A DNA stretch of 36,854 bases from Sulfurospirillum sp. UBA12182 (GTDB lineage Bacteria > Campylobacterota > Campylobacteria > Campylobacterales > Sulfurospirillaceae), in NCBI GenBank assembly GCA_002742765.1, contig DLUF01000049.1, positions 1,516-38,369 on the forward strand, read 5' to 3'. Shown one piece after another: positions 1,187-36,854 of the stretch (position 1 is the first letter of the stretch; each line of letters begins with the position of its first letter). The translations under genes and the position numbers were made by a program. The notes beneath the pieces were generated by a model. That model was not told the DNA's origin. It was given only the letters and a program-made list of their open reading frames with translations, and did no database searches.

Positions 1187-2108
1187 ACTCAAAAAAACCA
1201 AAATCAATAGATGGAAAAGCTAAGGCTTCCACCTCTCCACTCATCATCACTTTTTTATACTCTCTTATGAAGCTATCTACTGCTTGAGAAACAGAAGATA
1301 TCCCAGTTTGATATTTTATACATTGCATACTCAAAAGAGAGGCTAAGTCTCTTTTGATTTCTAGTTTTAAAGTATTTTCTCTATTATATCTTGTCTCATA
1401 CAAAAGCTTTACATGTAAGTCACAAACTGGACGAAATACTTCCATCAAGTCATCTACAAGAGCAAAAGCATTGTATCTGTTTTTATGCCATATACCAAAA
1501 ACAGGCAACATCCCACTAGCACTTACACTTCTAGCAGCAGAAGCTCGCAATATCGCATAACTATAATTGAGCATACTATTGAGTATATCTTCACTTTTTT
1601 GGTCTCTTCTAAAACTTTTTTCCTTAAAAAAAGATTTCCAATACAACCTTGCAGCCTGAGCTTCATCTTGATTTTGGTCATACAGTTGGACTTTTTTGGC
1701 AAGTTCTAGCAAATCTTTACATGTAGGATTTACAAAAAACTCTAACACGGATGCTTGATTTTGAATCTTACATGTAACTATCTTTTTCCAGATTATTTCT
1801 CGAAAATCTTGAGGGATGGAAACTTGCAAATCGGCAATTTCTCTCATCGTAGAGTGCTGATGATAAGGACTTAAGATAGCACAAGGATGAAACTCTTCAT
1901 CGATAAACAAAGCTGCGATATTGTTTTTAGCCAATAGCTCCAAACTAGTTCCTGTAATCGAAAAATGGGTGTTATCAAAAAGGATAAAATCTATATCCCC
2001 TAGAGTCACTTTTACTTTTTGGTCATCATCATAAAAATGAATCAATAAATTTTCACTCACAACTTTTATCTTACAGGGTCTTGAGAGATGTACTATCTTC
2101 CATCCCAT
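1173..2108 (-). CDS. cas1: CRISPR-associated endonuclease Cas1 (type II)
   Basis: Cas1 is the integrase that inserts new spacers at the array. The protein has 311 aa, typical for type II Cas1. The metal-binding residues are visible: Glu149 in DEAQAARLYW, His208 in FGIWHKN and the acidic pair in VDDLMEVFRP (Asp220, Glu223). The start lies 3 nt after the cas9 stop, so cas9-cas1-cas2 form one transcription unit. Two exact copies of the TTACATGTAA palindrome and one near copy fall inside the gene, encoding LHVK and twice TCK. No csn2 or cas4 follows, which defines subtype II-C. Confidence 0.97.
   Translation of the reverse strand: MGWKIVHLSRPCKIKVVSENLLIHFYDDDQKVKVTLGDIDFILFDNTHFSITGTSLELLAKNNIAALFIDEEFHPCAILSPYHQHSTMREIADLQVSIPQDFREIIWKKIVTCKIQNQASVLEFFVNPTCKDLLELAKKVQLYDQNQDEAQAARLYWKSFFKEKSFRRDQKSEDILNSMLNYSYAILRASAARSVSASGMLPVFGIWHKNRYNAFALVDDLMEVFRPVCDLHVKLLYETRYNRENTLKLEIKRDLASLLSMQCIKYQTGISSVSQAVDSFIREYKKVMMSGEVEALAFPSIDFGFFEYECI
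1409..1418. repeat. TTACATGTAA palindrome, copy 1
   Basis: Inside cas1; read as Leu-His-Val-Lys. Confidence 0.9.
1768..1777. repeat. TTACATGTAA palindrome, copy 2
   Basis: Inside cas1 in another frame; read as Val-Thr-Cys-Lys. A one-mismatch copy (TTACATGTAG, 1717-1726) nearby is also read Thr-Cys-Lys. Confidence 0.9.
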
Positions 2109-2111
2109 AGG

Positions 2112-5100
2112 TCAACTTTTTATATTTTTGATAAATTCTAAAAGCTCACTTTGAACATCTCCTATGGTTATATAGGATTTGATATTGCCCAAAATGTCAA
2201 GATTTAGTTTTATAATTCCTGTGGCTTTTCCAACAGAATGCTGTTTATGACTATTTGCTTTGCCATTAAAAATAGTCAAAAATATATGGGGTTGATTTGA
2301 AATACTTGCAGGAAATCTCGGATTTGAAAATGCAGCCATTTTTTTATCTTCAAGAAAACTTACTATCTTTCCACCTTTAACCCCTCCATCTGGATAGATA
2401 AAAAATACCAAATCATTTTTATAAACTTTAAAGCTATCATCATTTTCTTTTAATTTATAAATACCATTAACAACTATTGTATTGGATACATCGATTCTTT
2501 CATATTGCAAAGTATCATTTTCTAAAACTGATTTAAAACCTATGAAAGTTTTCTCTTTGGTTGCAAGTCCTCCTCTTATCTCAAATCCTGTCAGATTTGT
2601 TTGATAAAACTTCACTTTTCGTATCTCATTGCCATTGTTATCAATAAGTGGAGAATGAACCAAATCATCTAATTTTATTTTTGCTTCACTCATCGCTTCT
2701 TTATCTTTTGCATCAAGCCAAACAAATTCATTTAAAAGTTTAACGATTTCATCTGCTCTTTTTTGAACTATTTTACATATCACATCATTTGGATTTGTTT
2801 TGTACAAATACATTTTCGTTAAAATCTCTTTTTTAAAACTCTCAACAAACACTTCTGCTTTAGTCACAGGAGTAATCTTCAAAGCGATAAATTTAGCTGT
2901 GATATTTTCCCTAACAGTATAGATATCATTTGGTTTTTTACTATAAATGGTGTCTTTATGAACTTTTGATACCATAGGTTTTTTTGATACCCAAAAATTG
3001 ACTGTTTTTGTATTTCCAAAAATATCTTTGTAGAAGATACTTTCTTCACCAAACTCATTGTATCTCTCTTCTATCATTTCTACCAACTCTTTTGGTTCAA
3101 TTCCCTCTATAAGTGGCATAGCTTTTTTGATATTTGCTCGTGCTTCATCATCAATTTTGCCTAAATTTTCTCTAAAAGTACTGGAGAGTTTTTGAAGCCA
3201 AGATTTATTTGTAAGCCCTATCAGGATGGCATCTATTGCATGATGGATGTTAGTATCTCTTGTTTTTGTTTTTACATGTAAGAGTTTTCTTATATTTGAT
3301 GTGGCTCTTCCTTGTATGTGTCTTATCTCCATAGAATTTTTAGTTTGATTTGGAAATGGATAGTACCTTTTTAGCACTTGAGCACTCAACGCTTCTATGT
3401 AGCTAGTTGCTCTTAGTTCTTTAGACTCAAAAGTGTCTTTGAAAGTTTCTTCAAGAGTAGTAGCAAGGAGATTTATCTTTTTTTTCCAATTTATTTTACG
3501 CTCTTTGAATAAATCTTCAACTCTATTTTTAAAATCTTCTTTATCATTTATAAAATTCATAGGAAGTTGATTTGATTTTTTTAAGTTGCTATCTCTATGA
3601 ACTAAAACTAAATTATGCTTTACACTCAATCCTCCTAAACTTTGAGGGATGATATGGTCAATGTCAACTTTAGAAGTAAATATATCTTTAAACTCTATCC
3701 CCTCTCCTGTATAGATATCTCTTCTGTTTTGTTCCTCATACATCAATATTTTTCGTGCGTATTTTCGGAGATTTTTTCCATAATACTCTGCAATAGCTTG
3801 GTACTCTTTATTTGAAACAATATCGTCTATCTGTTTTTCTAAAGCCTTATTTGCTTTTTCAATCTCTTTTTTTGCCTCTTCACTAAGACTTAGTTCTCTC
3901 GTGCTCTCAACTCGTATCTCATCAAATACACCATGTTTTACATGCAAATGTTTCACGAGTCGCAAAACAGCACTTACGACATATTTGACTGGATGGTTGT
4001 TAATAGAAAGGTTATCATCTTTTTCAAATTGTGAAAGACTGAGATATTTTATCCCTTTTTTAAAATGAGTATAATTCTCCTCTTCGCTGATATTTAACTC
4101 TTTTTTTATATCACTTAAAGTATATCCTTGTTCAAAAAAAGGAATAAACTTAACCATAGCATAGGATGATGTCCTCAAACTTGAACCTGTTTTATGTTTG
4201 ATAAGTTCGATAATAGTTTTATCATCCACTTTATCTTTTAACTTTTCATAGATAGTTTTTGGAGATTTTTCAAACCCTAGTACATCAAAAATCTCTTTTA
4301 AAATCTCATATCTATTTGGTTTTTCTAAAATGGCATTAAAAACATCTCCAAATTTTGAGAGATGACTTAGAAAATGAAATTTGACAATACTCAATGTTCC
4401 ATCCTCTTTATTAAATATCTTAACATTATCATCAAGTTTTAAAATTTTTCTAATATCTTTGTATTTTATATCCGTGATATTTTTGCCCTTTTTGATTTTT
4501 GCAAAAAAATCATCATGTATAAGTTTGATTTGTTCTTTAGTTATCTTTGTTTTTTCTTTGTTAAAAGTGATATTTGACACCGCTTGATACATTTTAAATA
4601 TATCAGCCAAGAGTGAGTATTGGTGTGATACTTTATGTTCTTTGTAAAATTTACACCTTGCAAATAAATCTTCATTATTTGATGATTCTTTTTGGTCATC
4701 TATCGTTTTGATAACTTGTGAAGTAAATTCATTAACTTTAAAATCTTTCTCAAACAATCCAAATTTTACTTGAGAAAATATAATCTTTTTTATCTCATCA
4801 TTAATATCTTCTCTTCTTATCATGTATCTATAATTATCATGATTTCTAAAAGTAGGGGTCTTTTTCTTCATCTCTTCTTCATAGATGATAGTTGCTACTG
4901 TTTTGTTTGGGTATTTGAGTTTTAAATTTTCTATAGTTTTTAATGCTAATTTGATTTTCCCTTTTTCATCATCTTTTTTCGCCTTTTCTTCTTCAAAGGA
5001 TATATCTAACTCTACACACAATTCTTCAAGCAAATCGCTTGTATCTAAAGATTTATATCCTCGATATTTGGCTATGGCATAAAGAATTGAAAACAACTCT

Positions 5101-5447
5101 TCAATGTTCAATTTTTCTTCAAAAGCTTTTTTAGCTCTTAATTCCCATTTGTTTTTATAGAAATTTTGTTTTTCTTGATACAAAAAATAGTTTTTCTCTC
5201 CGAATCCAAACTCTTCAAAAAGTTTTGCGAGATTTTTCTTTCGTTTTTTCCGTAAATTTACAAGTTTTGAAGCACTGCTACTTGCACTATGTAAAAGTTT
5301 TTTTGATTTACCATCTTTATCAGTAGCTTTATCAAACATACTTACACCATAATCAATCAAAGAGTATCTATTATTTTCCAATTCTTCTAAGATACTGTAG
5401 CCTATTGAAGTAATACCCAAATCCAATGAGAGAATCTTTTTAGTCAT
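2112..5447 (-). CDS. cas9: CRISPR-associated endonuclease Cas9 (type II-C)
   Basis: RNA-guided nuclease of 1111 aa, in the compact II-C size class and a little longer than Campylobacter jejuni Cas9. Domains in order: RuvC-I with Asp9 in LSLDLGITSIGYS; an Arg/Lys-rich bridge helix about 59-81; a REC lobe to about 490; RuvC-II with Glu514 in EIRVESTREL; HNH with His598 in DIDHIIPQS and Asn621 in HRDSNLKKSN; RuvC-III with His736 and Asp739 in HHAIDAIL; then the wedge and PAM-interacting region to the end. All catalytic residues of both nuclease sites are present, so the enzyme looks intact. A ribosome site AAGGA precedes the ATG. The PAM cannot be read from sequence. Confidence 0.98.
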   Translation of the reverse strand: MTKKILSLDLGITSIGYSILEELENNRYSLIDYGVSMFDKATDKDGKSKKLLHSASSSASKLVNLRKKRKKNLAKLFEEFGFGEKNYFLYQEKQNFYKNKWELRAKKAFEEKLNIEELFSILYAIAKYRGYKSLDTSDLLEELCVELDISFEEEKAKKDDEKGKIKLALKTIENLKLKYPNKTVATIIYEEEMKKKTPTFRNHDNYRYMIRREDINDEIKKIIFSQVKFGLFEKDFKVNEFTSQVIKTIDDQKESSNNEDLFARCKFYKEHKVSHQYSLLADIFKMYQAVSNITFNKEKTKITKEQIKLIHDDFFAKIKKGKNITDIKYKDIRKILKLDDNVKIFNKEDGTLSIVKFHFLSHLSKFGDVFNAILEKPNRYEILKEIFDVLGFEKSPKTIYEKLKDKVDDKTIIELIKHKTGSSLRTSSYAMVKFIPFFEQGYTLSDIKKELNISEEENYTHFKKGIKYLSLSQFEKDDNLSINNHPVKYVVSAVLRLVKHLHVKHGVFDEIRVESTRELSLSEEAKKEIEKANKALEKQIDDIVSNKEYQAIAEYYGKNLRKYARKILMYEEQNRRDIYTGEGIEFKDIFTSKVDIDHIIPQSLGGLSVKHNLVLVHRDSNLKKSNQLPMNFINDKEDFKNRVEDLFKERKINWKKKINLLATTLEETFKDTFESKELRATSYIEALSAQVLKRYYPFPNQTKNSMEIRHIQGRATSNIRKLLHVKTKTRDTNIHHAIDAILIGLTNKSWLQKLSSTFRENLGKIDDEARANIKKAMPLIEGIEPKELVEMIEERYNEFGEESIFYKDIFGNTKTVNFWVSKKPMVSKVHKDTIYSKKPNDIYTVRENITAKFIALKITPVTKAEVFVESFKKEILTKMYLYKTNPNDVICKIVQKRADEIVKLLNEFVWLDAKDKEAMSEAKIKLDDLVHSPLIDNNGNEIRKVKFYQTNLTGFEIRGGLATKEKTFIGFKSVLENDTLQYERIDVSNTIVVNGIYKLKENDDSFKVYKNDLVFFIYPDGGVKGGKIVSFLEDKKMAAFSNPRFPASISNQPHIFLTIFNGKANSHKQHSVGKATGIIKLNLDILGNIKSYITIGDVQSELLEFIKNIKS
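3272..3281. repeat. TTACATGTAA palindrome, copy 3
   Basis: Inside cas9, read Leu-His-Val-Lys just before RuvC-III. A one-mismatch copy, TTACATGCAA (3938-3947), is also read Leu-His-Val-Lys near RuvC-II. Confidence 0.9.
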
Positions 5448-5476
5448 AAAAATCCTTTAAAAATCTATAAAATAAT

Positions 5477-5505
5477 ATTATACATTAAAAAATAATGATT
5501 TTTAA
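5477..5505 (-). promoter_or_regulatory. Probable promoter of cas9-cas1-cas2
   Basis: On the minus strand TATAAT (5477-5482) sits 30 nt before the cas9 ATG, with TTAAAA (5500-5505) 17 bp upstream matching four of six -35 bases. The surrounding sequence is T-rich, as usual in Campylobacterota promoters. The leader RNA would be about 20-25 nt. Confidence 0.6.
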
Positions 5506-5536
5506 CTTTAAAAAATTCTTATATATAAACTTTTTC

Positions 5537-5565
5537 TTGACAAATTAAAACTTTGGATGTATCAT
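5537..5565 (+). promoter_or_regulatory. Sigma70 promoter of the tetR-RND operon
   Basis: A perfect TTGACA (5537-5542), a 17-bp spacer and TATCAT (5560-5565). The start should lie near 5572, directly before the palindrome at 5577-5591. Confidence 0.8.
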
Positions 5566-5576
5566 TTCAAAAATGA

Positions 5577-5591
5577 ATGACTGTCAGTCAT
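5577..5591. promoter_or_regulatory. Palindromic operator, probably for the TetR-type repressor
   Basis: ATGACTG-T-CAGTCAT is a perfect 7-bp inverted repeat around one central base. It lies between the predicted transcription start and the ribosome site of the tetR gene. Position and symmetry suit autorepression of the whole operon by the downstream regulator. Confidence 0.7.
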
Positions 5592-5603
5592 AAAAGGAAT
5601 TCT

Positions 5604-6218
5604 ATGGCTAGAATCATAGACAAAGAGGAAAAACGAAACGATATTGCTCGTGCTTCTATCGCTTTGTTTTGTGAAAAAGGCATACAACAAACAAGCATGA
5701 AAGCTATCGCAAAGAGTGCAGGTGTAGCAAAAGGTACGATTTATCTCTATTTTAAAAACAAAGAGGAAATCATCTTTGCTATTTGGGACATGATAACTCA
5801 AATTCACCAAAAATCATACATGAAAAATATTACTAATGAGATGAGTGCTAGAGAAAAAATTTTATTGTATTTTAATTTTGAAGAATGTGAAGCACATGAG
5901 GACAAAGAACAAATTCTCATACTTTTTCAACACTTTCTTAGTGCAATGCTCGTTGATAAAACAGGAATATACACAAAGTATTTTGAAAGTTTTTTTGAAA
6001 AAGATTTTGAGTTTATCTCAACATGCTTACGCGAAGGAGTTCAAAAAGGAGAATTTCAAAGTGAAGATATTGAAATTCTTACAACGAGTATCATTCTTAT
6101 ATTTAAAGGTTTAGCAGTACATGTAAAAGCTTCAAATCTTGGTTTTTTTGAAGCTCAAAAGTTACTGCTTCAGTATATCAACTCCCTTTTAGACCATTAC
6201 ACAAGGTGTTTATCATGA
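5604..6218 (+). CDS. TetR/AcrR-family transcriptional regulator
   Basis: Predicted dimeric repressor of 204 aa. The N-terminal helix-turn-helix occupies about residues 12-56 (TSMKAIAKSAGVAKGTIYLYF is the recognition region). The rest is an all-helical ligand domain with no recognisable ligand. The frame is open from 5577, but AAGGA six bases before the ATG at 5604 and the family-like start MARIIDKEEK fix the start there; the upstream ATG falls inside the operator. The stop overlaps the adaptor start as ATGA. The regulator probably controls the pump it precedes and itself, through the palindrome at 5577-5591. Confidence 0.9.
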   Translation: MARIIDKEEKRNDIARASIALFCEKGIQQTSMKAIAKSAGVAKGTIYLYFKNKEEIIFAIWDMITQIHQKSYMKNITNEMSAREKILLYFNFEECEAHEDKEQILILFQHFLSAMLVDKTGIYTKYFESFFEKDFEFISTCLREGVQKGEFQSEDIEILTTSIILIFKGLAVHVKASNLGFFEAQKLLLQYINSLLDHYTRCLS

Positions 6219-6913
6219 AAAAAGTTTTTTTTACTATTGTATTTTTATATCAAGCCCTCATAGCAGGGGAAGTTTATGCTACCTTTGATGTAGTGAGTGA
6301 AAAAAGTTCAGAACTTGGACTTTCCATCTCAGGCATCGTTGGAAGCTTACATGTAGAAGTTGGAAGTCATGCAAAAAAAGGGGATTTACTCCTAGCTTTA
6401 GATAATGCTCAAGAAAAGAATGAGTATGAAATCGCAAAGAAAAATGCAGAACATGCCCAAAAAGTTTATAACCGCTATGCAAAAATCGCTGATGTCATCA
6501 ACAAAGAACAGATGGACAATTATCGCTACGATATGGAAGTCAAAATGCTCACAGCAAAAAATAAAGAGATTGTTTTCAAAAAAACAGAGCTTAGAGCTCC
6601 TTATGATTTGATAGTTTCTAAAAAGATGACTGAACTAGGAAATATCGTCTTAGGTTCACAAACGAAACTTTTGACAGTTGAAAGTGTAGAGGATATAAAG
6701 CTCATACTCAAGTTTGATGAAAAGTACTGGCAACAAGTCAAAGTAGGACAAAAATTTATCTACAAAGTTGATGGAAGTGATAAAAACTATGAAGGCACTA
6801 TCACCAAAATCTACCCAACTGTACTCTCAAGTACACGTCAAATGCAAGCTGAAGTCAAAGCAAAAGACCTTCTTCCAGGACTTTTTGGCAATGGCAATAT
6901 CATAGTGGAATAA
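6215..6913 (+). CDS. RND efflux periplasmic adaptor (membrane fusion protein), short form
   Basis: The protein has 232 aa and a signal peptide (about residues 1-22, MKKVFFTIVFLYQALIAGEVYA split here only for reading). A lipoyl-like half (GIVGSLHVEVGSHAKKGDLL) is followed by a short coiled-coil hairpin rich in Lys and Ala (about 70-120), the second lipoyl half (LRAPYDLIVSKKM) and a beta-barrel region. It is much shorter than typical AcrA-type adaptors (roughly 370-400 aa), mainly because of a short hairpin and an absent C-terminal membrane-proximal domain. The ATG at 6215 overlaps the tetR stop by four bases; an upstream GTG at 6206 is less likely. It connects the RND pump that follows to an outer-membrane channel not encoded here. 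Confidence 0.87.
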   Translation: MKKVFFTIVFLYQALIAGEVYATFDVVSEKSSELGLSISGIVGSLHVEVGSHAKKGDLLLALDNAQEKNEYEIAKKNAEHAQKVYNRYAKIADVINKEQMDNYRYDMEVKMLTAKNKEIVFKKTELRAPYDLIVSKKMTELGNIVLGSQTKLLTVESVEDIKLILKFDEKYWQQVKVGQKFIYKVDGSDKNYEGTITKIYPTVLSSTRQMQAEVKAKDLLPGLFGNGNIIVE

Positions 6914-6917
6914 TCCC

Positions 6918-9950: not shown

Positions 9951-9955
9951 CCATC

Positions 9956-9981: not shown

Positions 9982-9987
9982 ACACTC

Positions 9988-11533: not shown

Positions 11534-11543
11534 TTACATGTAA
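11534..11543. repeat. TTACATGTAA palindrome, copy 4
   Basis: Extended to the 14-bp palindrome CTTTACATGTAAAG (11532-11545). It supplies the last codons and stop of uppP (Leu-Tyr-Met-stop). Confidence 0.9.
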
Positions 11544-12328
11544 AGATAAAAAAGCACAACACCAAGTCCTAACCTATAAACCACAAACGGTAACATTGAA
11601 CTTTTTGAGATAAGTTTTAAAAAGAAAAAGATACAAACATAAGCACTCAAACCTGAAAAAACAACTGCACCTAAAAGTTCTAACCAGTTGACAGCCACTT
11701 GTGAGGCTATTAGTTCAAGTGTTTTTAATCCTCCAGCAAGGATTATAACTGGGATAGAGAGTAAAAAAGAGAATCTCGCAGCCGCTACTCTTGAGAAGCC
11801 AAGTAGCATAGCGGCACTCATCGTTATACCAGAACGTGAAGTACCAGGGATAAGAGCTATGGCTTGCGCTACGCCTATAAGCAAGGCTAAAAAAAGTGTA
11901 ATGCTTTTTTCATTTTTAACACCTGCTACTCTATCTGCAAGGAGTAAAACTAAACCAAAGATTAAAGTTGTACTTGCTATAACCAAAGGGGAACGTAAAG
12001 CTTCGCTTATAAAATCATTAAAACTAATTCCTGCTAATCCAACAGGAATAGTACCTATGATAACTCCCCAACCTAAGGTACTTTGTCCCACCTCTTTTTT
12101 AAGCTTAACATTTTCTAACATATCTTTAAGTATCTGCCAAATATCATCTTTAAAATAATATAAAACAGCTAAAAGCGTTCCTACATGTAAAGCAACATCA
12201 AAAGCCAAACCTTGGTCATCCCAATCAAAAAACTGTGGAACTAAGATAAGATGAGCTGAACTTGAGATTGGTAAAAACTCAGTAAATCCTTGAACAAGCG
12301 CAAGAAAAAATATCTGAAACCAATCCAT
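11534..12328 (-). CDS. uppP: Undecaprenyl-diphosphatase UppP (BacA)
   Basis: Integral membrane phosphatase (264 aa) that recycles undecaprenyl diphosphate to the monophosphate carrier for peptidoglycan and other surface polymers. Signature regions: QGFTEFLPISSSAHLIL (residues about 14-30) and PGTSRSGITMSAAMLLG (about 160-176), which hold the catalytic Glu, Ser and Arg. The start ATG directly abuts the gph stop. The last codons, Leu-Tyr-Met-stop, are formed by the palindrome CTTTACATGTAAAG. Confidence 0.95.
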   Translation of the reverse strand: MDWFQIFFLALVQGFTEFLPISSSAHLILVPQFFDWDDQGLAFDVALHVGTLLAVLYYFKDDIWQILKDMLENVKLKKEVGQSTLGWGVIIGTIPVGLAGISFNDFISEALRSPLVIASTTLIFGLVLLLADRVAGVKNEKSITLFLALLIGVAQAIALIPGTSRSGITMSAAMLLGFSRVAAARFSFLLSIPVIILAGGLKTLELIASQVAVNWLELLGAVVFSGLSAYVCIFFFLKLISKSSMLPFVVYRLGLGVVLFYLYM

Positions 12329-13000
12329 TTAGAAAGACTCTTTTTGTATATGCTCTATGGTTGCTACAAGTTTGATAAGCTCATTTGGGGTTTTTACTAT
12401 GTATTTTGCTCCATGAGCCAACAACTCTTCTTTGTCACGAAATCCCCATAAAACACCGATAGAAGGGATGTTTGCACTTTTTGCTGTTATCATATCTATA
12501 CTCGTATCTCCCACATATAAACAGTTCTCAGGCTCTACGCCTAAAATCTCTAAGATACCATAAACACCTTGTGGGTGAGGTTTTTTTGGAACTCCTTGGC
12601 GAACACCAAAAACAGCATCAAACTTCCAATTACGAAGATACTTTAAGACACATTTTTTAGTAAAAGAGTCTGGTTTATTTGATAAAACTGCCATTTTATA
12701 GCCTCTAGCAGAGAAAAATGTAAGCATTTTACTAATCCCCTCATACATTTTTGTATTTTTATCAAATTGCAAGGCATAGTGCTTTTCAAAAAGCTCCAAT
12801 GCTTTTACATGTAAAGACTCATCAGCATCAGGCATAGCATTTTTCATCAAAGCCAATGCCCCTTCTCCTACAAGATAGCGATACTTGTCTATTGGAATCT
12901 CTTCTCTTCCTAAGCTTTGTAAAACATGGTTTACACTCAAAGCGATATCTTTAAGAGTGTCTAAAAGTGTCCCATCTAAATCAAATATAACTGCTTTCAT
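12329..13000 (-). CDS. gph: HAD-family phosphoglycolate phosphatase
   Basis: HAD phosphatase of 223 aa that probably hydrolyses 2-phosphoglycolate. Motif I is FDLDGTLLDT (Asp7 nucleophile, Asp9 acid/base), motif II is VLSNKPDS, and motif III/IV is VGDTSIDMITAKSANI. The frame is open from 13042, but the ATG at 13000 starts right at the beta strand of motif I and has GGGGAGAG in front. It overlaps the upstream phosphatase gene by 20 nt. Other small-phosphate substrates are possible for this subfamily. Confidence 0.85.
   Translation of the reverse strand: MKAVIFDLDGTLLDTLKDIALSVNHVLQSLGREEIPIDKYRYLVGEGALALMKNAMPDADESLHVKALELFEKHYALQFDKNTKMYEGISKMLTFFSARGYKMAVLSNKPDSFTKKCVLKYLRNWKFDAVFGVRQGVPKKPHPQGVYGILEILGVEPENCLYVGDTSIDMITAKSANIPSIGVLWGFRDKEELLAHGAKYIVKTPNELIKLVATIEHIQKESF
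12805..12814. repeat. TTACATGTAA palindrome, copy 5
   Basis: Inside gph, read Leu-His-Val-Lys. A one-mismatch copy in uppP (CTACATGTAA, 12181-12190) reads Leu-His-Val. Confidence 0.9.
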
Positions 13001-15683: not shown

Positions 15684-16541
15684 CTATCCTTTGAAATATT
15701 TATCTACAATTCTCTCTAAAGTTACTCTCACTTTAGAATCTATATTTAAAAGCTCATCATGCAGTTCTTTTAACATCTCTTGCTTACTCTTAAGAGCGCC
15801 TTCAAGTCCTAAAAGATTTACAAAAGAGTTTTTATTGCTATCATTTGAAGTTGTTTTACCAGCTTGGGCAGAACTTTTTGTCACATCTATAATGTCATCT
15901 TCGACCTGAAAAAGAAGTCCTAATTTCAATCCAAAATTATATAAATTCTCTTTTGTTTGTTTATCAAGCCCACAAATAACAGCTCCCATCAAAATCGAAG
16001 CAGCTATGAGCTTAGCTGTTTTGTTTACATGTAAAAACTTTAACTGTTCAAGCGAAAGCTTTTGATTTTCAAACTCACAGTCTATCGCTTGACCAATTAT
16101 CATCCCACTAATCCCACCATCACGAGAGAGGATATTGATGAGCTCTAATTTAGTTTCACAAGAGAGTGGGGCATTTGCCAAGATGTTAAAAGCATGAGTG
16201 TTCAAAGCATCACCGACAAGTACAGCAGTCACTTCATCAAAGCTTACATGTAAAGTAGGATTACCTCTTCGCAAAGCAGCATCATCCATACAAGGCAAAT
16301 CATCATGAATGAGTGAATAAGTATGGAGTAACTCTAAAGATAAAGCTGCATACATAGCGTTTTTCACTAACAATGGTTCACAATTTTGAACAACACTCAA
16401 CAGCAGCAATGGTCTAAATCTTTTGCCTCCTGCATTTAGCATTTGAGCTAGAGCATCGTTAAAATGAGGATGAAAACTATCGATACGAGGTAGGTGTGTT
16501 TGCAAAAACTCTTCAAACTGGGTTAATAACTCTTTTTCCAA
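15684..16541 (-). CDS. ispA: Short-chain polyprenyl diphosphate synthase (farnesyl/geranyl type)
   Basis: All-alpha prenyltransferase of about 285 aa. The first Asp-rich motif DDLPCMDD and following RRGNPT, and the second, QVEDDIIDVT, are both complete. The two residues between the Asp pairs of the first motif mark the bacterial farnesyl synthase type. There is no ATG; two in-frame TTG codons compete (16547 and 16541). I chose 16541 because AGGA lies six bases before it, whereas at 16547 it would touch the codon. Two exact TTACATGTAA palindromes lie in this gene (LHVN and LHVS). With uppP nearby, the cluster touches isoprenoid carrier supply. Confidence 0.92.
   Translation of the reverse strand: MEKELLTQFEEFLQTHLPRIDSFHPHFNDALAQMLNAGGKRFRPLLLLSVVQNCEPLLVKNAMYAALSLELLHTYSLIHDDLPCMDDAALRRGNPTLHVSFDEVTAVLVGDALNTHAFNILANAPLSCETKLELINILSRDGGISGMIIGQAIDCEFENQKLSLEQLKFLHVNKTAKLIAASILMGAVICGLDKQTKENLYNFGLKLGLLFQVEDDIIDVTKSSAQAGKTTSNDSNKNSFVNLLGLEGALKSKQEMLKELHDELLNIDSKVRVTLERIVDKYFKG
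16025..16034. repeat. TTACATGTAA palindrome, copy 6
   Basis: Inside ispA, read Leu-His-Val-Asn. Confidence 0.9.
16244..16253. repeat. TTACATGTAA palindrome, copy 7
   Basis: Inside ispA, 219 bp from copy 6, read Leu-His-Val-Ser. Confidence 0.9.
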
Positions 16542-18425: not shown

Positions 18426-19718
18426 TTATTTTTCTAGGAGAGTTTTGACAACTTCTCTATCGTCAAAAGGATACTTTTTGCCTTTAATTTCTTGATAAGT
18501 TTCATCACCCTTACCAAGGATGAGAACTATCTCATCAGCTTCTCTTATCTGCAATGCCAGCTCAATGGCTTTTTTCCTATTAGGCTCTACATGTACAGAT
18601 TGTTTGTGTTTGATTCCAGTGAGTATGTCTTGGATTATGGCCTCTGGTTCTTCACTTCTTGGGTTATCACTTGTGATAATAATTTTTTTTGCGTATCGAC
18701 TAGCTACCTGAGCCATTTGTGGTCGTTTTGTTCTATCCCTATCTCCACCTGCTCCAAACACAACAACGATATCTCTATCTTTCATTGAATCCAAAACTTT
18801 TTCCATGCCATCTGGAGTATGTGCAAAGTCAACTATAACTAAAGGATTTTCACTTACGACTTGCATTCTACCCTCAACGCCTGCAAAATTTTCTATCACT
18901 TCACAAATCTCTTCTATATTTGCAACACCTAACATATCAAGTGCACTAATCGCTGCTAAAGTGTTATAAACGTTGAAAAGTCCATGCATAGGAGAAGAGT
19001 AATCAAATACTTTTTTGATATTTTGTACAGCTACACTTATCCCCTCTTTTAAGGAGTATGCTGCTACTTTATATGTAGCTGGTTTCTCTAGCCCATAGGT
19101 CATACAGTTTTTTGGGTTGAATCTTATTTTATTTTCATCTTTGTTGATAAGCTTTAAGCTCTCATCCGCAAAAAACTGGCTTTTTATAGCACAGTAGTTC
19201 TCAAAAGTTTTGTGATAATCTAAATGGTCTTGAGAGATATTAGTAAGAATTTTGAGTGAAAAAGGAAGCCCTTTAATTCTCTCTTGGTCAATTGCATGGG
19301 AGCTTACTTCCATCACGAAGTATTCACACTGCTGGTTGAGTGCTTTTTGTATGTTTGAGATTGTATCTAAAAGCAAAGGTGTTGTTAGCGATTTATCAGC
19401 GACTCTTTCTTCATTGATAAAACATCCTCTTGTACCTTGCATCGCTACTTTTTTACCAAGATCTAGCAACATTGAGTATATGGCTGCGGCTGTTGTTGTT
19501 TTACCATTTGTACCAGTAATGCCTATAATTTTGATTTTCTTATCAATCTCTAAAAGCTTTATTAGTGTCTCTGGTTCTAAGATTTTCATCTCTTTGGGGA
19601 CAAAACTAAGATATTTTTCATTCAGTTTTGTTTTTAAAAAATAAGTAGCTTCTTGGATTTCATTTGTGTTGTCTGTAACTACTAACTCACCTGTTTGGTT
19701 TTTTACATGTAAAAGCAA
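18426..19718 (-). CDS. murE: UDP-N-acetylmuramoyl-tripeptide synthetase (meso-diaminopimelate adding)
   Basis: Mur ligase (430 aa) that adds meso-diaminopimelate to UDP-MurNAc-Ala-Glu in the cytoplasm. The ATP-binding loop is GITGTNGKTTT (67-76), the conserved region EVSSHA follows (137-142), and the carbamoylated Lys should be Lys179 in AIKSQFF. DNPR at 351-354 is the determinant of diaminopimelate over lysine. The start is a TTG four bases after the preceding stop; its N-terminal domain is short, as in related Campylobacterota proteins. The start region includes the palindrome TTTTACATGTAAAA. Confidence 0.95.
   Translation of the reverse strand: MLLHVKNQTGELVVTDNTNEIQEATYFLKTKLNEKYLSFVPKEMKILEPETLIKLLEIDKKIKIIGITGTNGKTTTAAAIYSMLLDLGKKVAMQGTRGCFINEERVADKSLTTPLLLDTISNIQKALNQQCEYFVMEVSSHAIDQERIKGLPFSLKILTNISQDHLDYHKTFENYCAIKSQFFADESLKLINKDENKIRFNPKNCMTYGLEKPATYKVAAYSLKEGISVAVQNIKKVFDYSSPMHGLFNVYNTLAAISALDMLGVANIEEICEVIENFAGVEGRMQVVSENPLVIVDFAHTPDGMEKVLDSMKDRDIVVVFGAGGDRDRTKRPQMAQVASRYAKKIIITSDNPRSEEPEAIIQDILTGIKHKQSVHVEPNRKKAIELALQIREADEIVLILGKGDETYQEIKGKKYPFDDREVVKTLLEK
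19703..19712. repeat. TTACATGTAA palindrome, copy 8
   Basis: At the start of murE, read Leu-His-Val-Lys at residues 3-6; symmetric over 14 bp (TTTTACATGTAAAA). Confidence 0.9.
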
Positions 19719-24106: not shown

Positions 24107-24116
24107 TTACATGTAA
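24107..24116. repeat. TTACATGTAA palindrome, copy 9
   Basis: The only intergenic copy, in the 47-bp gap between map and infA. Confidence 0.9.
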
Positions 24117-27377: not shown

Positions 27378-27386
27378 TTGTTACCC

Positions 27387-28392: not shown

Positions 28393-28403
28393 ACTACTTT
28401 TCC

Positions 28404-28589: not shown

Positions 28590-28590
28590 A

Positions 28591-29740: not shown

Positions 29741-29991
29741 TACTCTACTCCTACCGTAACTATCTCTTTTAATCTAAAAGCTTTTCTTTTAGAAAGTGGT
29801 CTACACTCGATAGCTACCACAGTATCACCTGCTTTAACTTCATTTTTTTCATCATGAACGAGGTATTTTTTAAAACGTTTAACGAACTTATGATATCTTG
29901 GGTGCATTACACGTCTTTCTACTAAAACTGTTGCTGTTTTATCACCAGTTTTTTGTACAACCACGCCTTGTATCTCTCGTTTTAAAGCCAT
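29740..29991 (-). CDS. rpsQ: 30S ribosomal protein S17
   Basis: 83 aa, OB fold. [18 protein letters not shown] and [15 protein letters not shown] match the family. Confidence 0.97.
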
Positions 29992-30006
29992 TATATCTAC
30001 CCCTAA

Positions 30007-30195
30007 TTATTTATTTTGAGCCGAAATAGCCGTATTAATACGTGCGATATCTCTTCTAACTTCCTTAATTTCATTAGGATTAGTTAGTTGCATTGTTCTT
30101 AACTTTTGCTTTAATGTAAACAAAAGAACCTTTTTCTCTTTTAATAGTTCTGCTAATTGCTCAGCAGTTTTTTCATTTAAATCAGTATATTTCAT
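30007..30195 (-). CDS. rpmC: 50S ribosomal protein L29
   Basis: 62 aa, two helices; near the peptide exit tunnel. [15 protein letters not shown] closes the protein. Overlaps rplP by 14 nt. Confidence 0.95.
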
Positions 30196-30607
30196 TTTCG
30201 CTCTCTCTAGTCACTATCTTTGTCTTGAAAGGTAACTTGTGCATCGCAAGTGTTAGAGCTTCACGTGCAAGTTCTTCACTAACTCCTGCCATTTCAAATA
30301 TGATTCTACCTGGCTTAATATTCATAACCCATTTATCAACTGAACCTTTACCTTTACCCATTCTTGTCTCTAGTGGCTTTGCTGTTAGAGGCTTATCTGG
30401 GAATACACGAATCCATGTTTTTGCCTGACGCTTTACATGTCTTGTATAAGAGATACGCGCTGCTTCAATTTGACGAGAATCGATACGACCAGCTTCAACA
30501 GCTTTAAGTGCGATTTCACCAAAAGCGATAGAGTTACCTCTAAAAGACTTACCGCGATTACGGCCCTTCATTTGCTTTTTATATTTTGTTCTTTTAGGCA
30601 TTAACAT
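30182..30607 (-). CDS. rplP: 50S ribosomal protein L16
   Basis: 141 aa. [19 protein letters not shown] at the start and the [20 protein letters not shown] segment identify it. Start overlaps the rpsC stop as TAATG. Confidence 0.97.
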
Positions 30608-31302
30608 TAGTTCTTACCTCTTCTTGGTTTTCTTGGTTTTTTCTCTTCTTCTTTTGGTTCAGCTTGAATACCATTACTCAAAACTTCACCTTTGAAGATC
30701 CATACTTTGATACCGATAATTCCGTATGTAGTATGAGCTTCTGCAAAACCGTAATCTATCTTAGCTCTTAGAGTATGAAGTGGAACTCTTCCTTCCAAAT
30801 ACCACTCTGTTCTAGCCATTTCCGCACCACCAAGACGTCCAGCAACTGATACTTTAATACCTTTTGCACCAGACTTCTGTGCACCTTGAATAACTTTTTT
30901 CATAGCTCTTCTAAATGCAACACGACGCTCTAACTGCATTGCAACATTTTCAGCTGCAAGTTGAGCAGAAGCTTGTGGTTTTCTCTCTTCTTTGATATTA
31001 ACATTTACATCTTTACCGATTAAATTATGGAGCTTCAATCTAAGTTTTTCGATATCCGCACCTTTTTTACCGATAATAATTCCAGGACGAGCTGCAACTA
31101 CTGTAACTCTTAATTTCTTTGCTGTTCTTTCTACTAGAATTTGGCTAACACCAGCATAGTAAAGCTCTTTTTTCAAGAATTTTCTGATTTTATGATCTTC
31201 ACCGATATTTTCTGCCAAGTTAGCACCACCAGGGTACCATCTTGAATCCCAGTTTCTATTGATTCCTAGTCTTAAACCAATTGGATTTACTTTTTGACCC
31301 AT
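30607..31302 (-). CDS. rpsC: 30S ribosomal protein S3
   Basis: 231 aa. The KH domain carries [15 protein letters not shown] (GxxG loop); the C-terminal domain has [14 protein letters not shown]. It ends in an unusually charged tail of Glu then Lys/Arg/Pro ([14 protein letters not shown]). Confidence 0.97.
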
Positions 31303-31303
31303 C

Positions 31304-31636
31304 TTAGTCTTCCTTCTTAGCTAGCTTGCTTACTTCTACAAGTATATGAGATGTTGGTTTTCTGATTCCACTTGCACTACCTCTTGCTCTTGGTCTAAAT
31401 CTTTTAAGAACTGGACCTGCATCTACTCTACAAGATGATACTACAACTTCTTCTGGTTCAAAACCACCATTTGCAACTGCACTAGCAATTACTTTTGAAA
31501 TCACTTTTGCACCTTTGTTTGGCATAAATTCTAAACTAGCAAGAGCAAGTTCAGCGTTCATACCTTGTACTTCGCGAGCAATTAATCTAGCCTTTGTAGG
31601 AGATAATCTAATAAATTTTAATACTGCTTTACTCAT
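31304..31636 (-). CDS. rplV: 50S ribosomal protein L22
   Basis: 110 aa. [18 protein letters not shown] at the start and the tunnel hairpin [18 protein letters not shown] identify it; this loop lines the exit tunnel and is the macrolide-relevant region. Confidence 0.97.
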
Positions 31637-31645
31637 TATCTATCC

Positions 31646-31927
31646 CTACTTACCGATTTTCTTCTGAACAGAGCCTTTATGACCCTTAAACGTTCTAGTT
31701 GGTGCAAATTCACCTAGTTTGTAACCGATATGGTTTTCAGTTACATATACAGGAATAAAATTTCTACCATTGTGTACATTTAATGTTAATCCGATCATAT
31801 CAGGAGTAATAGTACTTCTACGTGACCATGTTTTGATCGGCTTATTTGAGTTTTCCTCTTTTGCCTTTAATACTTTCTTCATTAAGTGATCATCAACAAA
31901 AGGACCTTTTTTTAGCGATCTAGCCAT
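31646..31927 (-). CDS. rpsS: 30S ribosomal protein S19
   Basis: 93 aa. [18 protein letters not shown] and [14 protein letters not shown] are signature regions. Confidence 0.98.
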
Positions 31928-32758
31928 CTATTTTCCTTTTCTTCTAGAAATAATCAGTTTATCACTCGCTTTTTTCTTACGAGTTTTAGCACCTTTAGTT
32001 GGTTTACCCCATGGAGTTACAGGGTGACGACCTGAGTTTTTCTTACCTTCACCACCACCGTGTGGGTGATCGATTGGGTTCATCGCAGAACCACGAGTTT
32101 GAGGTCTGATTCCTCTATAACGATTACGTCCTGCTTTACCGATAACAACGTTTGCCCAGTCTTCACATCCAACTGTACCAACAGTAGCCATACATTCAGC
32201 AAGTACTTGTCTCATTTCACCACTTGGTAATCTAAGAATTACATATTTCTCTTCTTTACCCATAAGTTGTGCATATCCACCAGCACTTCTTGCCATCTGT
32301 CCACCTTTACCAGGTTTCATTTCGATGTTATGTAAGATTGTACCAACAGGGATATTTTTTAATTTCATTGCATTACCTGGCTTGATATCAAGACCAGCTT
32401 CAGCAGCCATTACAGCGTCACCTACAGCTAAACCAGAAGGTTGAAGAATATATCTTTTATCTCCATCAGCATAAACAATCAATGCAATACGACAGTTTCT
32501 GTTTGGATCGTATTCGATTGCTTCTACACGGCCTGGAATATCAAATTTTCTTCTTTTAAAATCGATAATTCTGTAAAGTTTCTTTGCTCCACCCTCTTTA
32601 TGACGAGAAGTGATTCTACCGTTGTTATTTCTACCGCCAGATACTGGAAGCTTAACAAGTAGACTAGGAACACTCGCTTTAGCAGTAATATCACTACTAT
32701 CTAAGCCAGTTAAAAATCTACGGCTCGGAGTATATGGTTTATAAGTTTTAACTGCCAT
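31928..32758 (-). CDS. rplB: 50S ribosomal protein L2
   Basis: 276 aa. The peptidyl-transferase-near segment [15 protein letters not shown] contains the conserved His, followed by the basic tail with [12 protein letters not shown]. Adjacent to rpsS without a gap. Confidence 0.98.
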
Positions 32759-32759
32759 A

Positions 32760-33041
32760 TTACGCTCCTACATTTTCAAGTTGAGCACCCTCAGGTAACT
32801 GAACATAGAATTTTTTGTAATCGTTTCTTTTACCTTGGATACCTTTAAATCTTTTAACTTTTCCTAAAACTCTCATAGAGTTTACTTTTACAGGAGTAAA
32901 GCCAAAATACTCTCTAAGAACCTCTTTCAAACGGTTTTTTGTCATTCTTGTTGAAGTTTGAATAACAACTGTACCATTCTCTTGAAGGCTCAAGCTCTTT
33001 TCAGTATAAAGGATTGCTTTTATATCTGTTATATCTGCCAT
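32760..33041 (-). CDS. rplW: 50S ribosomal protein L23
   Basis: 93 aa. [17 protein letters not shown] and [14 protein letters not shown] fit the family; binding site of trigger factor and SRP at the tunnel exit. Confidence 0.95.
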
Positions 33042-33043
33042 AA

Positions 33044-33658
33044 TTAGCCCTCTTTTACTATTGTTTCAAACACTGATTTTTCAATTACTACTGCATAAAA
33101 TGCACTAGCTAAATAAGCATTCAGTTCATTTGATTCGATTAAATATGCGTTTGGAACATTTCTGAAAGCCAAAAATGTTTTTTCATCTATCAAATCTTTT
33201 ACGATTAGTACGTCTCTTGCACCTATAGATTTTACTACACTTGCAGCTTCTTTTGTTTTACCAGATTCTACTGCAACTGAATCTACAACAAATAAAGCAC
33301 CTTTTGCTGCTTTTTCATTTAAAGCAAACTCAAGAGCTAATCTTTTTTGTTTTTTATTGATTTTTTGATCATAGTTTCTATTTGCTTTAGGAGCAAATGT
33401 AACACCACCACCTACCCATACAGGGTTAGTTCTACTACCAGCACGTGCGCCACCTCTACCTTTTTGGCTCCATGGCTTTTTACCACCACCGCTTACTTCA
33501 CTTCTAGTTTTTGCACTAGCAGTGTTCGCACGAAGTGCCGCTAAGTAAGATTTAACGTATAGGTGTAAGTTGTGAGAGTTAATCTCTTCATACTTTGCAG
33601 GAAGAGCTAGATCTCCTGATTTTTCAAATTTACCATTTAGTACGATTGCACTACTCAT
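33044..33658 (-). CDS. rplD: 50S ribosomal protein L4
   Basis: 204 aa. The extended loop [20 protein letters not shown] lines the exit tunnel. In Escherichia coli L4 also represses the S10 operon; a matching leader element was not recognised here. The start overlaps the rplC stop (ATGA). Confidence 0.97.
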
Positions 33659-34758: not shown

Positions 34759-35832
34759 ATGCAAATTTTAGATTTTTTATATGAAGAAGAGAATAAAAAT
34801 TCAAAATTTTTTGATAGAAAAATTTCAATTACTTCAAAAAAAACTCTTATAAAAGGAGTAAAAAAATCTGGAAAAACCTATATCATATATGATTATCTTT
34901 CCAACTTCCATCCTGATGAGTATCTTTATATTGATCTTTTAGATGAGAGAATTAAAGATTTACACGTTGAAAAAAATTTAGAAAAATTTTTAGAAAATAA
35001 AAAAATAAAAATCTTGGTTATCGAAAATTACGATTTTACTTTCCCTTTACCATCTCTTGAAGAAATAATCATCACTTCACACCGCAAAGATGTAAAACTA
35101 GAAGGTTTTGATGAGCTTATGCTCTATCCTTTAGACTTTGAGGAATTTATAGCTTTTGATAGAAAACACTTCAACATAGAGCAAATTTTCAATATCTTTG
35201 CAAATCTTGGTACTTTTCCCCAAATAGTTCTTGAACATGAGCATAATGTAAGAAGTAATTTACAAGATTTGATTAGAATTATCATTCAAGATGAAACCAA
35301 ATTGAATATCTTTAAAAAAATTTGTGAACTCCAAAGTACAAAGATTTCACTCTTTCAAATCTATAATCAACTAAAAAGTATTTCCAAAATTTCAAAAGAT
35401 AAACTTTATCGGAGTATCAAAGAGTTAGAAAATGAAAACATTCTCTTTTTTGTAGAAAAATTTGATGCTACAAATGCAAACAAAAAAGTCTATCTTTGTG
35501 ATTTTGCTATCAAAAATGCTTTAAGTCTCAAAAAAGACTTTCTCAAAAGATTTGAAAATATAGTCTTTTCAGAGTTATATAAAAGATACAAGGAAATTTT
35601 TTATACTGATGTGATTGATTTTTATCTACCAAAGCAAAACATTGGCATCATTTGTGCGCCTTTTTCTCCCAAAGAATTTATCGAAGAAAAATTAAAAAAG
35701 TACTCTACACATCTTTTGGATTTAAGCCTTCAAGAGATTTATATCATTTCAGTAGGAAACGAAGATGCATTTAATATAGAAGGTATCACATGCAATATCG
35801 TTCCTTTTTGGGAGTGGGCTTTACAAGGTTGA
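34759..35832 (+). CDS. AAA-type ATPase of the AAA_14 / DUF4143-like group
   Basis: 357 aa. Walker A is GVKKSGKT (33-40), the Walker B strand is KILVIENYD (84-92), and IITSHRK resembles sensor 1. LMLYPLDFEEFIAFDRK is the helix typical of AAA_14 ATPases. A winged-helix-like part follows (about 205-250), then a C-terminal domain with FENIVFSELYKRYKEIFYTD and VIDFYLP, resembling the nuclease-like DUF4143 fold; the usual Glu-x-Lys is replaced by ICAPF, so nuclease activity is unlikely. AAGGAG lies five bases before the ATG. Function is unknown. It is divergent from rpsJ and overlaps the next gene tail-to-tail by 12 bp. Confidence 0.75.
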   Translation: MQILDFLYEEENKNSKFFDRKISITSKKTLIKGVKKSGKTYIIYDYLSNFHPDEYLYIDLLDERIKDLHVEKNLEKFLENKKIKILVIENYDFTFPLPSLEEIIITSHRKDVKLEGFDELMLYPLDFEEFIAFDRKHFNIEQIFNIFANLGTFPQIVLEHEHNVRSNLQDLIRIIIQDETKLNIFKKICELQSTKISLFQIYNQLKSISKISKDKLYRSIKELENENILFFVEKFDATNANKKVYLCDFAIKNALSLKKDFLKRFENIVFSELYKRYKEIFYTDVIDFYLPKQNIGIICAPFSPKEFIEEKLKKYSTHLLDLSLQEIYIISVGNEDAFNIEGITCNIVPFWEWALQG

Positions 35833-36854
35833 GATTCTTTTTCTCAAAGTTATGCTATTGCCTTGCTCATTATAATAAAATCTATCAAGCAATTTTTTGA
35901 TTATCATGATACCTCGTCCATTGAAACCTTTTGGGTTAACGACAAGTTGTCTCAATTCTCTTACATCAAATCCTAAACCAGGATCAGTAACTTTACAGAT
36001 GAACATCTTTCCTCTTCTTGATTCTTTGATAAAATATTTTATATTTATATATTTGTCTTTGTTTTGAGCTTCTAACTTATCGAGTAAATCATCAAATTCA
36101 CCATTTTCTATGAGCTTTGATTTTGTTTTTTTATCAATTCCATAAATCCCATGTTCTACTGCATTGAGTAAAACTTCTGACATAGCTAAAATAATCTCTG
36201 AGATATCTTTTGCATTCGCCTTTACTTGTAAAAGTGATTCTCGAATTTCAGTTAAAACAGCATCCACTTCTTCTCTTTTACCCAAAACACTTATATCTTT
36301 CCAATCTACATTTAACTCCACCACATCCAGATAAAAATACGCCATATCATCTTGGTTTTCTACCAATCTCTCCTTTACATGTAAAGAAAAATCACTAATA
36401 CACTCTGAATTTAAAAAATCTTCATACATGTACTTTTTGTAAAATTCTCCATTTTCAAGCTTGTTTTCACAAAGACCATCTGTATGTATTAAAATCTTTT
36501 TGATATTTTTTGCATTTAAAGTATCTACCTTGAACTCTTGCGTATACTGGCTTATTGGCATGTTGTTACTCTTGATTTTTACAAGTTGATTTTTAAAGTC
36601 TTTAGCGATGACTGCTGGCATCCCAAAAGAAGCGTAACTACAAGAGGAACTCTCTTTTTCATACATCCCAAAGATAATAGAAAGCATCTCATTATCTAGT
36701 AACTCTTTTTTTATATACTCCACATAACTTTGTATCCACTTTGAAAAATCAAAATTTTTATCTGCTTGCATTTGATCAAAAATAAAATTTAAAAGCGAAG
36801 TTGTCGTTGTTGCAGTAAGAGAAGCAGATATCCCAAATCCTGACATAAACATAG
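35821..36854 (-). CDS. SpoIIE/PP2C-type phosphatase with C-terminal HATPase domain (partial)
   Basis: The frame is open to the right edge, so the N terminus is missing; at least 343 codons are present. The first part is a PP2C-like SpoIIE domain: SGFGISASL, ILIHTDGLCENK (metal Asp) and ENQDDMAYFYLDV (second metal Asp). The last 150 aa form an HATPase_c domain of the anti-sigma kinase type: MSEVLLNAVEHGIYG (N box), DPGLGFDV (G1) and NGRGIMIIKKLLD (G2). This pairing is typical of partner-switching regulators, often behind sensor or receiver domains that would lie off-window. The Asp expected before SGFG is Phe here. Confidence 0.82.
   Translation of the reverse strand, partial: MFMSGFGISASLTATTTTSLLNFIFDQMQADKNFDFSKWIQSYVEYIKKELLDNEMLSIIFGMYEKESSSCSYASFGMPAVIAKDFKNQLVKIKSNNMPISQYTQEFKVDTLNAKNIKKILIHTDGLCENKLENGEFYKKYMYEDFLNSECISDFSLHVKERLVENQDDMAYFYLDVVELNVDWKDISVLGKREEVDAVLTEIRESLLQVKANAKDISEIILAMSEVLLNAVEHGIYGIDKKTKSKLIENGEFDDLLDKLEAQNKDKYINIKYFIKESRRGKMFICKVTDPGLGFDVRELRQLVVNPKGFNGRGIMIIKKLLDRFYYNEQGNSITLRKRISTL
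36375..36384. repeat. TTACATGTAA palindrome, copy 10
   Basis: Inside the SpoIIE-type phosphatase gene, read Leu-His-Val-Lys; symmetric over 14 bp (CTTTACATGTAAAG). Confidence 0.9.

Follow-up and report, generated by a model that had tools for sequence, protein, structure and literature searches.

How is a ten-base palindrome maintained at dispersed places in a genome of the Campylobacterota? The question is raised by a stretch of 36,854 nt from Sulfurospirillum sp. UBA12182 (contig DLUF01000049.1 of assembly GCA_002742765.1; the genome is labeled G000 below), which we refer to as the window. It carries ten exact copies of the palindrome TTACATGTAA, where 100 dinucleotide shuffles gave 0.09 (standard deviation 0.29, maximum 1), in line with an earlier note on this DNA that had put the chance expectation below one copy. 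Among the four candidate roles that were left open in that note, the new data favor a DNA uptake signal with dialects, possibly to be read together with methylation in Sulfurospirillum. We lean towards TTACATGTAA (extended, CTTTACATGTAAAG) being the Sulfurospirillaceae dialect of such a signal, for which we infer both uptake and a receptor.

Abundance of the palindrome

The enrichment extends to the whole genome. TTACATGTAA occurs 657 times in the 2,252,670 bases of G000 (120 contigs), against 2 occurrences of a reversed-pattern control, and a sample of 345,571 bases from this genome holds 102 copies where an order-2 Markov model predicts 0.76. For the relative G194, the corresponding values are 1,496 copies in the whole genome (control 4) and 103 in a sample of 200 kb (0.34 expected). 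The genome-wide count, which the earlier note had proposed to compare with a Markov model, is thus far above expectation, and the shuffles, the reversed control and the Markov model rule out base-composition bias as its cause. As had been noticed before, the copies in the window lie in unrelated genes (cas1, cas9, bacA, a HAD hydrolase, a polyprenyl synthetase, the Mur-ligase family and a SpoIIE/HATPase gene), so that a single repeated gene family as the source of the enrichment is ruled out as well.

Copy numbers were also compared across related genomes, as had been proposed. Among 44 genomes of the family Sulfurospirillaceae the number of copies ranges from 6 to 1,496 per genome. The main genus (g2) has 840-1,496 copies in 17 of its 24 genomes and 49, 168, 238, 411, 412, 605 and 608 in the remaining seven, while genus g3 (6-97) and two genomes of g4 (22 and 29) are close to background. 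Within an order-wide sample of 298 genomes, raised counts outside the Sulfurospirillaceae were found in family f17 only, which we take to be the Sulfurimonadaceae (367 in G104, 340 in G127, 96 in G181, 48 in G159, 31 in G202, and 0-10 in the rest); the other families have 0-9 copies per genome. The transketolase of the window shares 84% identity (best segment) with the enzyme of Sulfurospirillum sp. UBA6810, and 80% with that of S. arcachonense DSM 9755.

The plasmid pSDCE1 of S. diekertiae (L296, L297) carries 4 copies of TTACATGTAA, compared to 17.4 predicted from the chromosomal density, and 14 of TACATGTA; it encodes its own D12 methyltransferase adjoining an IS21 element. Phage records with a transketolase were uninformative on the motif.

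Conservation between orthologues

Selection or spread acting on the DNA, and not on the proteins, had been proposed in the earlier note and is supported by a comparison of orthologues in the transketolase region, between the window and nine named relatives (reciprocal best hits with more than 50% identity). Out of 183 site comparisons (21 more, at alignment gaps, were set aside), 54 were exact and 31 differed by one base. When the encoded residues are equal, all ten bases are kept in 46 of 58 comparisons, which are not independent pairs as they share sites and species, compared with ten-base identity in 18.5% of the background windows in which three residues agree (n = 59,467). The encoded residues differ in 125 of the 183 comparisons, which shows that the peptide itself is not conserved. 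Many exact orthologous copies are shared by relatives with 53-87% identity in the compared proteins.

Dialects in related genomes

The motif takes several forms, and a CATG core is common to all dialects found in the Sulfurospirillaceae and f17. The extended form is TTTACATGTAAA in G194 and G000 and CTTACATGTAAG in G104; the outer T is replaced by C in G258 as well as in two named loci, L075 and L113 (CTACATGTA, ACATGTAGAG). TATCATGATA was identified in G039 (7 copies vs. 0.34 expected in 80 kb) and in L117 (6 copies in 5.2 kb). G181 has 96 exact copies of TTACATGTAA but 854 at one mismatch or less, which corresponds to TACATGTA with loose flanks.

The motif is palindromic in the Sulfurospirillaceae and in some f17 genomes, but not in G276. 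This genome, probably a Sulfurimonas, contains a non-palindromic 11-mer, GGCATGTGGAA, in 734 copies (354 + 380; control 0), and a sample of 460 kb holds 139 of them (0.15 expected), with the consensus TTTGGCATGTGGAAAT. None of the remaining 297 genomes in the order-wide sample has more than six copies, the six being in G221, and no GGCATGTGGAA-type dialect was evident in small samples (20 kb) of eight further g21 genomes. That a dialect with the same core can be non-palindromic speaks most strongly against explaining the motif purely by a methyltransferase or a dimer site.

Of the six G221 copies, two lie 6.5 kb apart (C14:117330 and 123824) and four are at other places. They resemble the "peregrine" DNA uptake sequences (DUS) of Frye 2013 (PMC3630211), and are perhaps imported DNA.

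Other repeated motifs were observed as well. In L131 (G264, 20 kb), ACCGTGAC has six dispersed copies on both strands (0.15 expected), a possible further dialect that lacks CATG, in what is a small sample. In L124 (uncultured Helicobacteraceae bacterium BRZ_QM bin61), positions 1-21875 hold 20 dispersed copies of AGATTCTA on both strands (2.5 expected). The repeats in 20-kb samples of L129, L137, L143 and the L125 cluster were considered as dispersed motifs and rejected, being tandem or clustered repeats. CATG outside TACATGTA is under expectation (0.56-0.89) in samples of G194, G000, G127, G039, G080 and G118. AAAGAG/CTCTTT is over-represented in samples of G194, G000, G127, G104, G080 and G039 (574 vs. 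258 in G194) and is possibly a Chi-like or coding signal.

Placement, mismatches and close pairs

Placement relative to open reading frames (ORFs) was determined for the samples of G194, G000 and G127 with our own ORF caller. Outside ORFs lie 44 of 103 copies in G194 (11.1 expected; 59 inside) and 25 of 102 in G000 (11.8 expected; 77 inside), and the same holds for 36 of the 139 copies of GGCATGTGGAA in the G276 sample (13.3 expected). Expressed as copies per kb, intergenic and genic densities are 2.3-3.0 vs. 0.33 in G194, 0.45-1.07 vs. 0.25 in G000 and 0.54-1.2 vs. 0.25 in G276. Within ORFs most copies occupy one reading phase, encoding Leu-His-Val-x (42/59 in G194, 59/77 in G000), which suggests that they sit where the protein allows. 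The copies are not restricted to upstream regions, and their gaps in the G194 sample are near-random (mean 1738, standard deviation 1853), with no regular spacing. The motif of G276 shows no strand preference relative to the gene (46 with, 57 against).

A mismatch is tolerated solely at the outermost position and the interior positions are strict, according to letter tables that omit sites too close to the end of a stretch. Beyond approximately 14-16 bp there is little conservation, save for a weak enrichment of A. Close pairs in G276 are inverted in 9 of 11 cases under 60 bp, and in all seven of those with starts 12-23 bp from each other. For close pairs of the palindrome, the stem is lengthened by complementary outer flanks in G194 (mean 2.6 of 4 over 5 pairs, vs. 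1.4 random) and not in G000 (1.5 over 6 pairs, vs. 1.4).

A candidate DNA uptake signal

These features could be explained if competent cells had an uptake machinery with a preference for motif-bearing DNA. Such DNA would be taken up and recombined more often, leading to copies being gained, and repaired by conversion, and the copies would fill those regions of the chromosome that tolerate them, for the most part intergenic DNA and coding DNA under weak constraint. Drift in the specificity of the receptor would then give rise to dialects that keep the CATG core (TTTACATGTAAA, CTTACATGTAAG, CTACATGTAG, TATCATGATA and the non-palindromic TTTGGCATGTGGAAAT). A D12-class adenine methyltransferase, apparently vertically inherited and presumed to act on CATG, is probably part of the system in the main lineage of Sulfurospirillum. 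It would perhaps mark self copies by methylating these sites, as CtsM does at RAATTY in Campylobacter jejuni. The sequence-specific receptor in systems of the DUS and uptake signal sequence (USS) type is ComP, or the predicted ComN.

As far as the accessible portions of the cited papers go, here and below, DNA uptake sequences have been described in Neisseriaceae and Pasteurellaceae only (PMC3630211, PMC5031613). The DUS of Neisseriaceae occur in very many copies, with fixed-core dialects and with inverted pairs that are associated with terminators (Frye 2013, PMC3630211). Our motif is similar in its hundreds to thousands of copies of ~10-12 bp in coding and intergenic DNA, its fixed-core dialects and, in G276, its inverted pairs; in contrast to the DUS, its main dialect is palindromic around a CATG core and occurs in another phylum. 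Uptake sequences lie partly inside ORFs, with an excess in non-coding DNA and no orientation bias (Bakkali 2007, PMC1939737). The motif resembles the USS of Pasteurellaceae in being genome-wide, partly within ORFs, in excess in non-coding DNA and, in G276, without orientation bias (PMC1939737), but it has a different sequence and its interior one-mismatch copies are at background.

Several observations weigh against an uptake signal. The ComEC family (PF03772), present in 51 of 54 genomes, also occurs in motif-poor ones, e.g. G080, G039 and G283, indicating that the channel does not track copy number. No uptake experiment was found in print. The uptake sequences of Haemophilus influenzae and Neisseria gonorrhoeae are not palindromes, and for that of Actinobacillus pleuropneumoniae one-mismatch forms greatly exceed expectation (947 vs. 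86) (PMC1939737), whereas interior one-mismatch copies of our motif show no excess over expectation (9 vs. ~8.8 in G194, 13 vs. ~20 in G000, 7 vs. ~6.5 in G127); one-mismatch copies in the whole genome of G194 number 339 (control ~120). A clear intergenic excess is lacking in G127, with 2 of 17 copies outside ORFs (1.2 expected). Finally, the link to a methyltransferase, discussed below, fits an explanation along the lines of the cyanobacterial highly iterated palindromes (HIPs) equally well.

Loss of ComEC as a cause of low counts is not supported, given its presence in 51 of 54 genomes. The family gave no match in G001, G301 and G307, which are drafts of 81-90% completeness, and short matches in G309 and G310.

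The earlier note, which gave HIP1 and uptake sequences as parallels, knew of no equivalent in the Campylobacterota, and our literature search likewise found no report of the motif in bacteria; papers containing its ten letters looked unrelated by their title and the start of their abstract. Literature on transformation in Sulfurimonas and Sulfurospirillum, on uptake sequences in Campylobacter and the Epsilonproteobacteria, on iterated and over-represented palindromes, on CtsM and RAATTY and on AAATTT motifs, searched mostly among papers free of subscription and in their accessible parts, also yielded no report. A third, independent case of uptake tags, with palindromic and non-palindromic dialects together in the Campylobacterota, would shed light on the origin of such tags and on the way they change. 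The main genus consists of environmental bacteria with cultured members, and addition of the motif to DNA might ease transformation of Sulfurospirillum and Sulfurimonas.

Methyltransferase association

High motif density goes with one clade of D12 methyltransferases in Sulfurospirillum, though some motif-rich genomes lack that enzyme. A search with PF02086 (D12) identified one kind of ~330-residue enzyme in 10 of 16 genomes. Searching the 298 genomes revealed a widespread form, mostly with 60-80% identity to the G002 query, a divergent form (49-59%, "type B") in Sulfurospirillum, and weaker homologs. Type B forms a single clade of 14 rows (support 100/99) in a tree that was built without G106, G232 and the fragmented G305, the last of which was assigned to type B only by its identity (75 and 83% in two pieces). 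Matches at 66-67% identity include genomes of f14, which we take to be Helicobacter. CATG would thereby be the predicted target of the D12 methyltransferase, as Helicobacter pylori hp1208 methylates CATG (PMC3936762). Homologs of ~370 residues with 30-36% identity in many f11 genomes may be CtsM. Solved structures include no relative of the D12 methyltransferase at E<=0.001, and no NCBIfam model scored over its cut-off.

Within g2 (24 genomes), the 15 carriers of type B have 362-520 copies/Mb and the 9 non-carriers 19-467 (one-sided Mann-Whitney, p=3.4e-4); with genomes of at least 90% completeness (12 vs. 7) the same test gives p=4.0e-5, both calculated with rounded genome sizes and with relatedness ignored. 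In a midpoint-rooted ComEC tree, which was built without G307, G309 and G310, the type B-less G118 and G080 (85 and 19 copies/Mb) are placed among carriers, with only moderate supports (87/82, 81/69), the type B-less G150 and G277 (152 and 233 copies/Mb) on a separate branch, and the type B-less G308 (77% complete) as sister to the carrier G295. For the METHYLTRANSFERASE link, these placements suggest that type B was lost or replaced at least twice, mostly with lower density. In G150, which has another type of enzyme, one-mismatch copies of the 8-mer number 27 where 13 are expected, as if copies were decaying; they are below expectation in G194 (48 vs. 76) and G000 (126 vs. 190).

The association is the strongest argument for an account like that of HIP1 in cyanobacteria, in which the numbers of an iterated palindrome are kept by a resident methyltransferase, whether by repair, by biased mutation or by selection that favors methylated sites, without any role in uptake. 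It is in keeping with this account that type B carriers in g2 are the denser genomes and that the low-density genomes without type B belong to two lineages, one of them among the carriers, and cyanobacterial HIP sequences are found together with methyltransferases that act on their core (Elhai 2015, PMC4390886). Like HIP1 (GCGATCGC), our motif is, in the Sulfurospirillaceae and some f17 genomes, a highly iterated palindrome with a short methyltransferase-type core and lineage-specific variants (PMC4390886). Unlike the HIPs, which are GC-rich, it is AT-rich (20% GC) and has a non-palindromic dialect, and its 657 copies in 2.25 Mb, or 362-520 copies/Mb in the densest group, compare with 1000-2000/Mb for HIPs (PMC4390886). 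The association rests moreover on one methyltransferase clade, which means that genomes are not independent points, and D12 and PF01555 were the classes searched.

The CATG-type enzyme is also not present in every motif-rich genome. G183 (389 copies/Mb, 99% complete) has no match to it, which counts against the link; G307 has 467 copies/Mb without type B, in a genome 86% complete. No match to a CATG-type D12 enzyme or to PF01555 was found in G093 (567 copies), nor to PF02086 or PF01555 in the single-contig G127 (340 copies). In G276, whose motif is non-palindromic and whose close pairs are inverted as in uptake sequences, no match to the CATG-type enzyme was found at E<=1e-20, though other D12 and PF01555 enzymes are present. 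Taken together, we consider maintenance by a methyltransferase in the manner of HIP1 rather unlikely.

PF01555 methyltransferases were considered as a partner of the motif and rejected: among the 11 of 25 searched genomes with at least 340 copies, eight had no match and G000 had one below the cut-off.

Other explanations

A palindrome of 10-14 bp would suit a dimeric protein, and the motif could be the binding site of a homodimer that organizes the nucleoid or chromosome and is needed at hundreds of places. The strict interior positions and the spread of copies at near-random gaps are compatible with this. However, the spacing is not regular, the copy number ranges from 49 to 1,496 inside one genus, the related dialect of G276 is non-palindromic, and the preference of ORF copies for one reading phase places them where the protein permits; we therefore find such a binding site improbable.

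A short mobile or mutational element, or a REP-like or transcription-factor site multiplied without function, is most improbable, as the large copy number and the intergenic excess in G194, G000 and G276 that speak for it are set against the many copies inside ORFs (not mostly intergenic or upstream), the lack of confinement to upstream regions, the scarce conservation past ~14-16 bp apart from weak A enrichment, and the many exact orthologous copies between relatives with diverged proteins.

A possible combination of methylation and uptake

The uptake signal that we favor and the methyltransferase association are not necessarily separate, and a combined reading has a precedent among the Campylobacterota: uptake in C. 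jejuni is restricted to DNA with methylated RAATTY sites (PMC10046745). The CtsM/RAATTY system is likewise found in Campylobacterota and has a short palindromic core (PMC10046745, PMC8627207). It differs in that RAATTY is short and no longer iterated motif is described for it in the accessible portions of these papers (PMC10046745, PMC8627207), and methylation of CATG is presumed in our case. Tentatively, uptake in the Campylobacterota may be coupled to methylation: a D12 enzyme would mark the core palindrome, which is CATG in Sulfurospirillum and RAATTY in Campylobacter, a receptor would read the methylated extended motif, and enzyme, receptor and motif would co-evolve as dialects, with Sulfurimonas having slid to a non-palindromic form without a CATG-type enzyme. 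If true, this would make HIP-like palindromes, methylated uptake and DUS members of one evolutionary series. As motif density, presence of the methyltransferase and dialect vary within one genus, this group is a place to test what maintains HIP-like palindromes.

An iterated motif was also observed in L100 (uncultured Campylobacter sp. RUG537), where positions 1-11597 contain 20 dispersed copies of TCAAATTTGA (often TTCAAATTTGAA), genic and intergenic, compared to 0.07 expected. Its core AAATTT is a RAATTY site. In whole f11 genomes TCAAATTTGA is modestly raised (16-60 vs. controls of 1-6 in 18 genomes of g15, g37, g45 and g58; 5-18 vs. 2-11 in genus g28), showing that the density in L100 is not general. 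It is raised outside f11 as well, in G055 (34 vs. control 8) and G068 (25 vs. 7), both of f23, g39.

Copies and neighboring genes in the window

All ten exact copies reported in the earlier note were recovered at their positions, and no strand is assigned to these or to the mismatched copies. Seven of them encode Leu-His-Val-x: 1409..1418 in cas1, 3272..3281 in cas9, 12805..12814 in the HAD-hydrolase gene, 19703..19712 in the Mur-ligase-family (folC-like) gene and 36375..36384 in the SpoIIE/HATPase gene (all Leu-His-Val-Lys), and 16025..16034 (Leu-His-Val-Asn) and 16244..16253 (Leu-His-Val-Ser) in the polyprenyl synthetase gene, where the orthologous sites of both copies are exact in several relatives. 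The copy at 1768..1777 in cas1 encodes Val-Thr-Cys-Lys. Of the two remaining copies, that at 11534..11543 gives the bacA gene its TAA stop codon, and that at 24107..24116 is intergenic and adjoins an M24 peptidase gene inside the ribosomal-protein/secY/rpoA cluster. The 14-bp symmetry described for two copies (CTTTACATGTAAAG) is present at 11534 and 36375.

The five one-mismatch copies already listed are all present: TTACATGTAG at 1717..1726 in cas1 (Pro-Thr-Cys-Lys, so that this copy also encodes x-Thr-Cys-Lys) and at 6347..6356 in an HlyD-family gene, TTACATGCAA at 3938..3947, GTACATGTAA at 6117..6126 in a TetR-family gene and CTACATGTAA at 12181..12190 in bacA. A sixth, TTACTTGTAA at 36222..36231, is additional to that list. 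The two-mismatch copy CTACATGTAC was found, as reported, at 18587..18596 in the Mur-ligase-family (folC-like) gene.

The widest interval between exact copies, 24.1-36.4 kb, consists mostly of ribosomal-protein genes. By Pfam, positions 21053-33658 encode rpoA, rpsD, secY and ribosomal proteins, with a single copy of the palindrome, the intergenic one at 24107; this near-absence is expected if strong protein constraint excludes copies. A prophage was considered for the motif-poor block at ~20-36 kb and dropped on account of the same Pfam assignments (ribosomal-protein, secY and rpoA genes). At the other end of the window, positions 1-795 and 1173-5447 comprise a CRISPR-like array, with repeats spaced 66-67 bp, adjoining the cas1 and cas9 genes, both of which contain copies of the palindrome.

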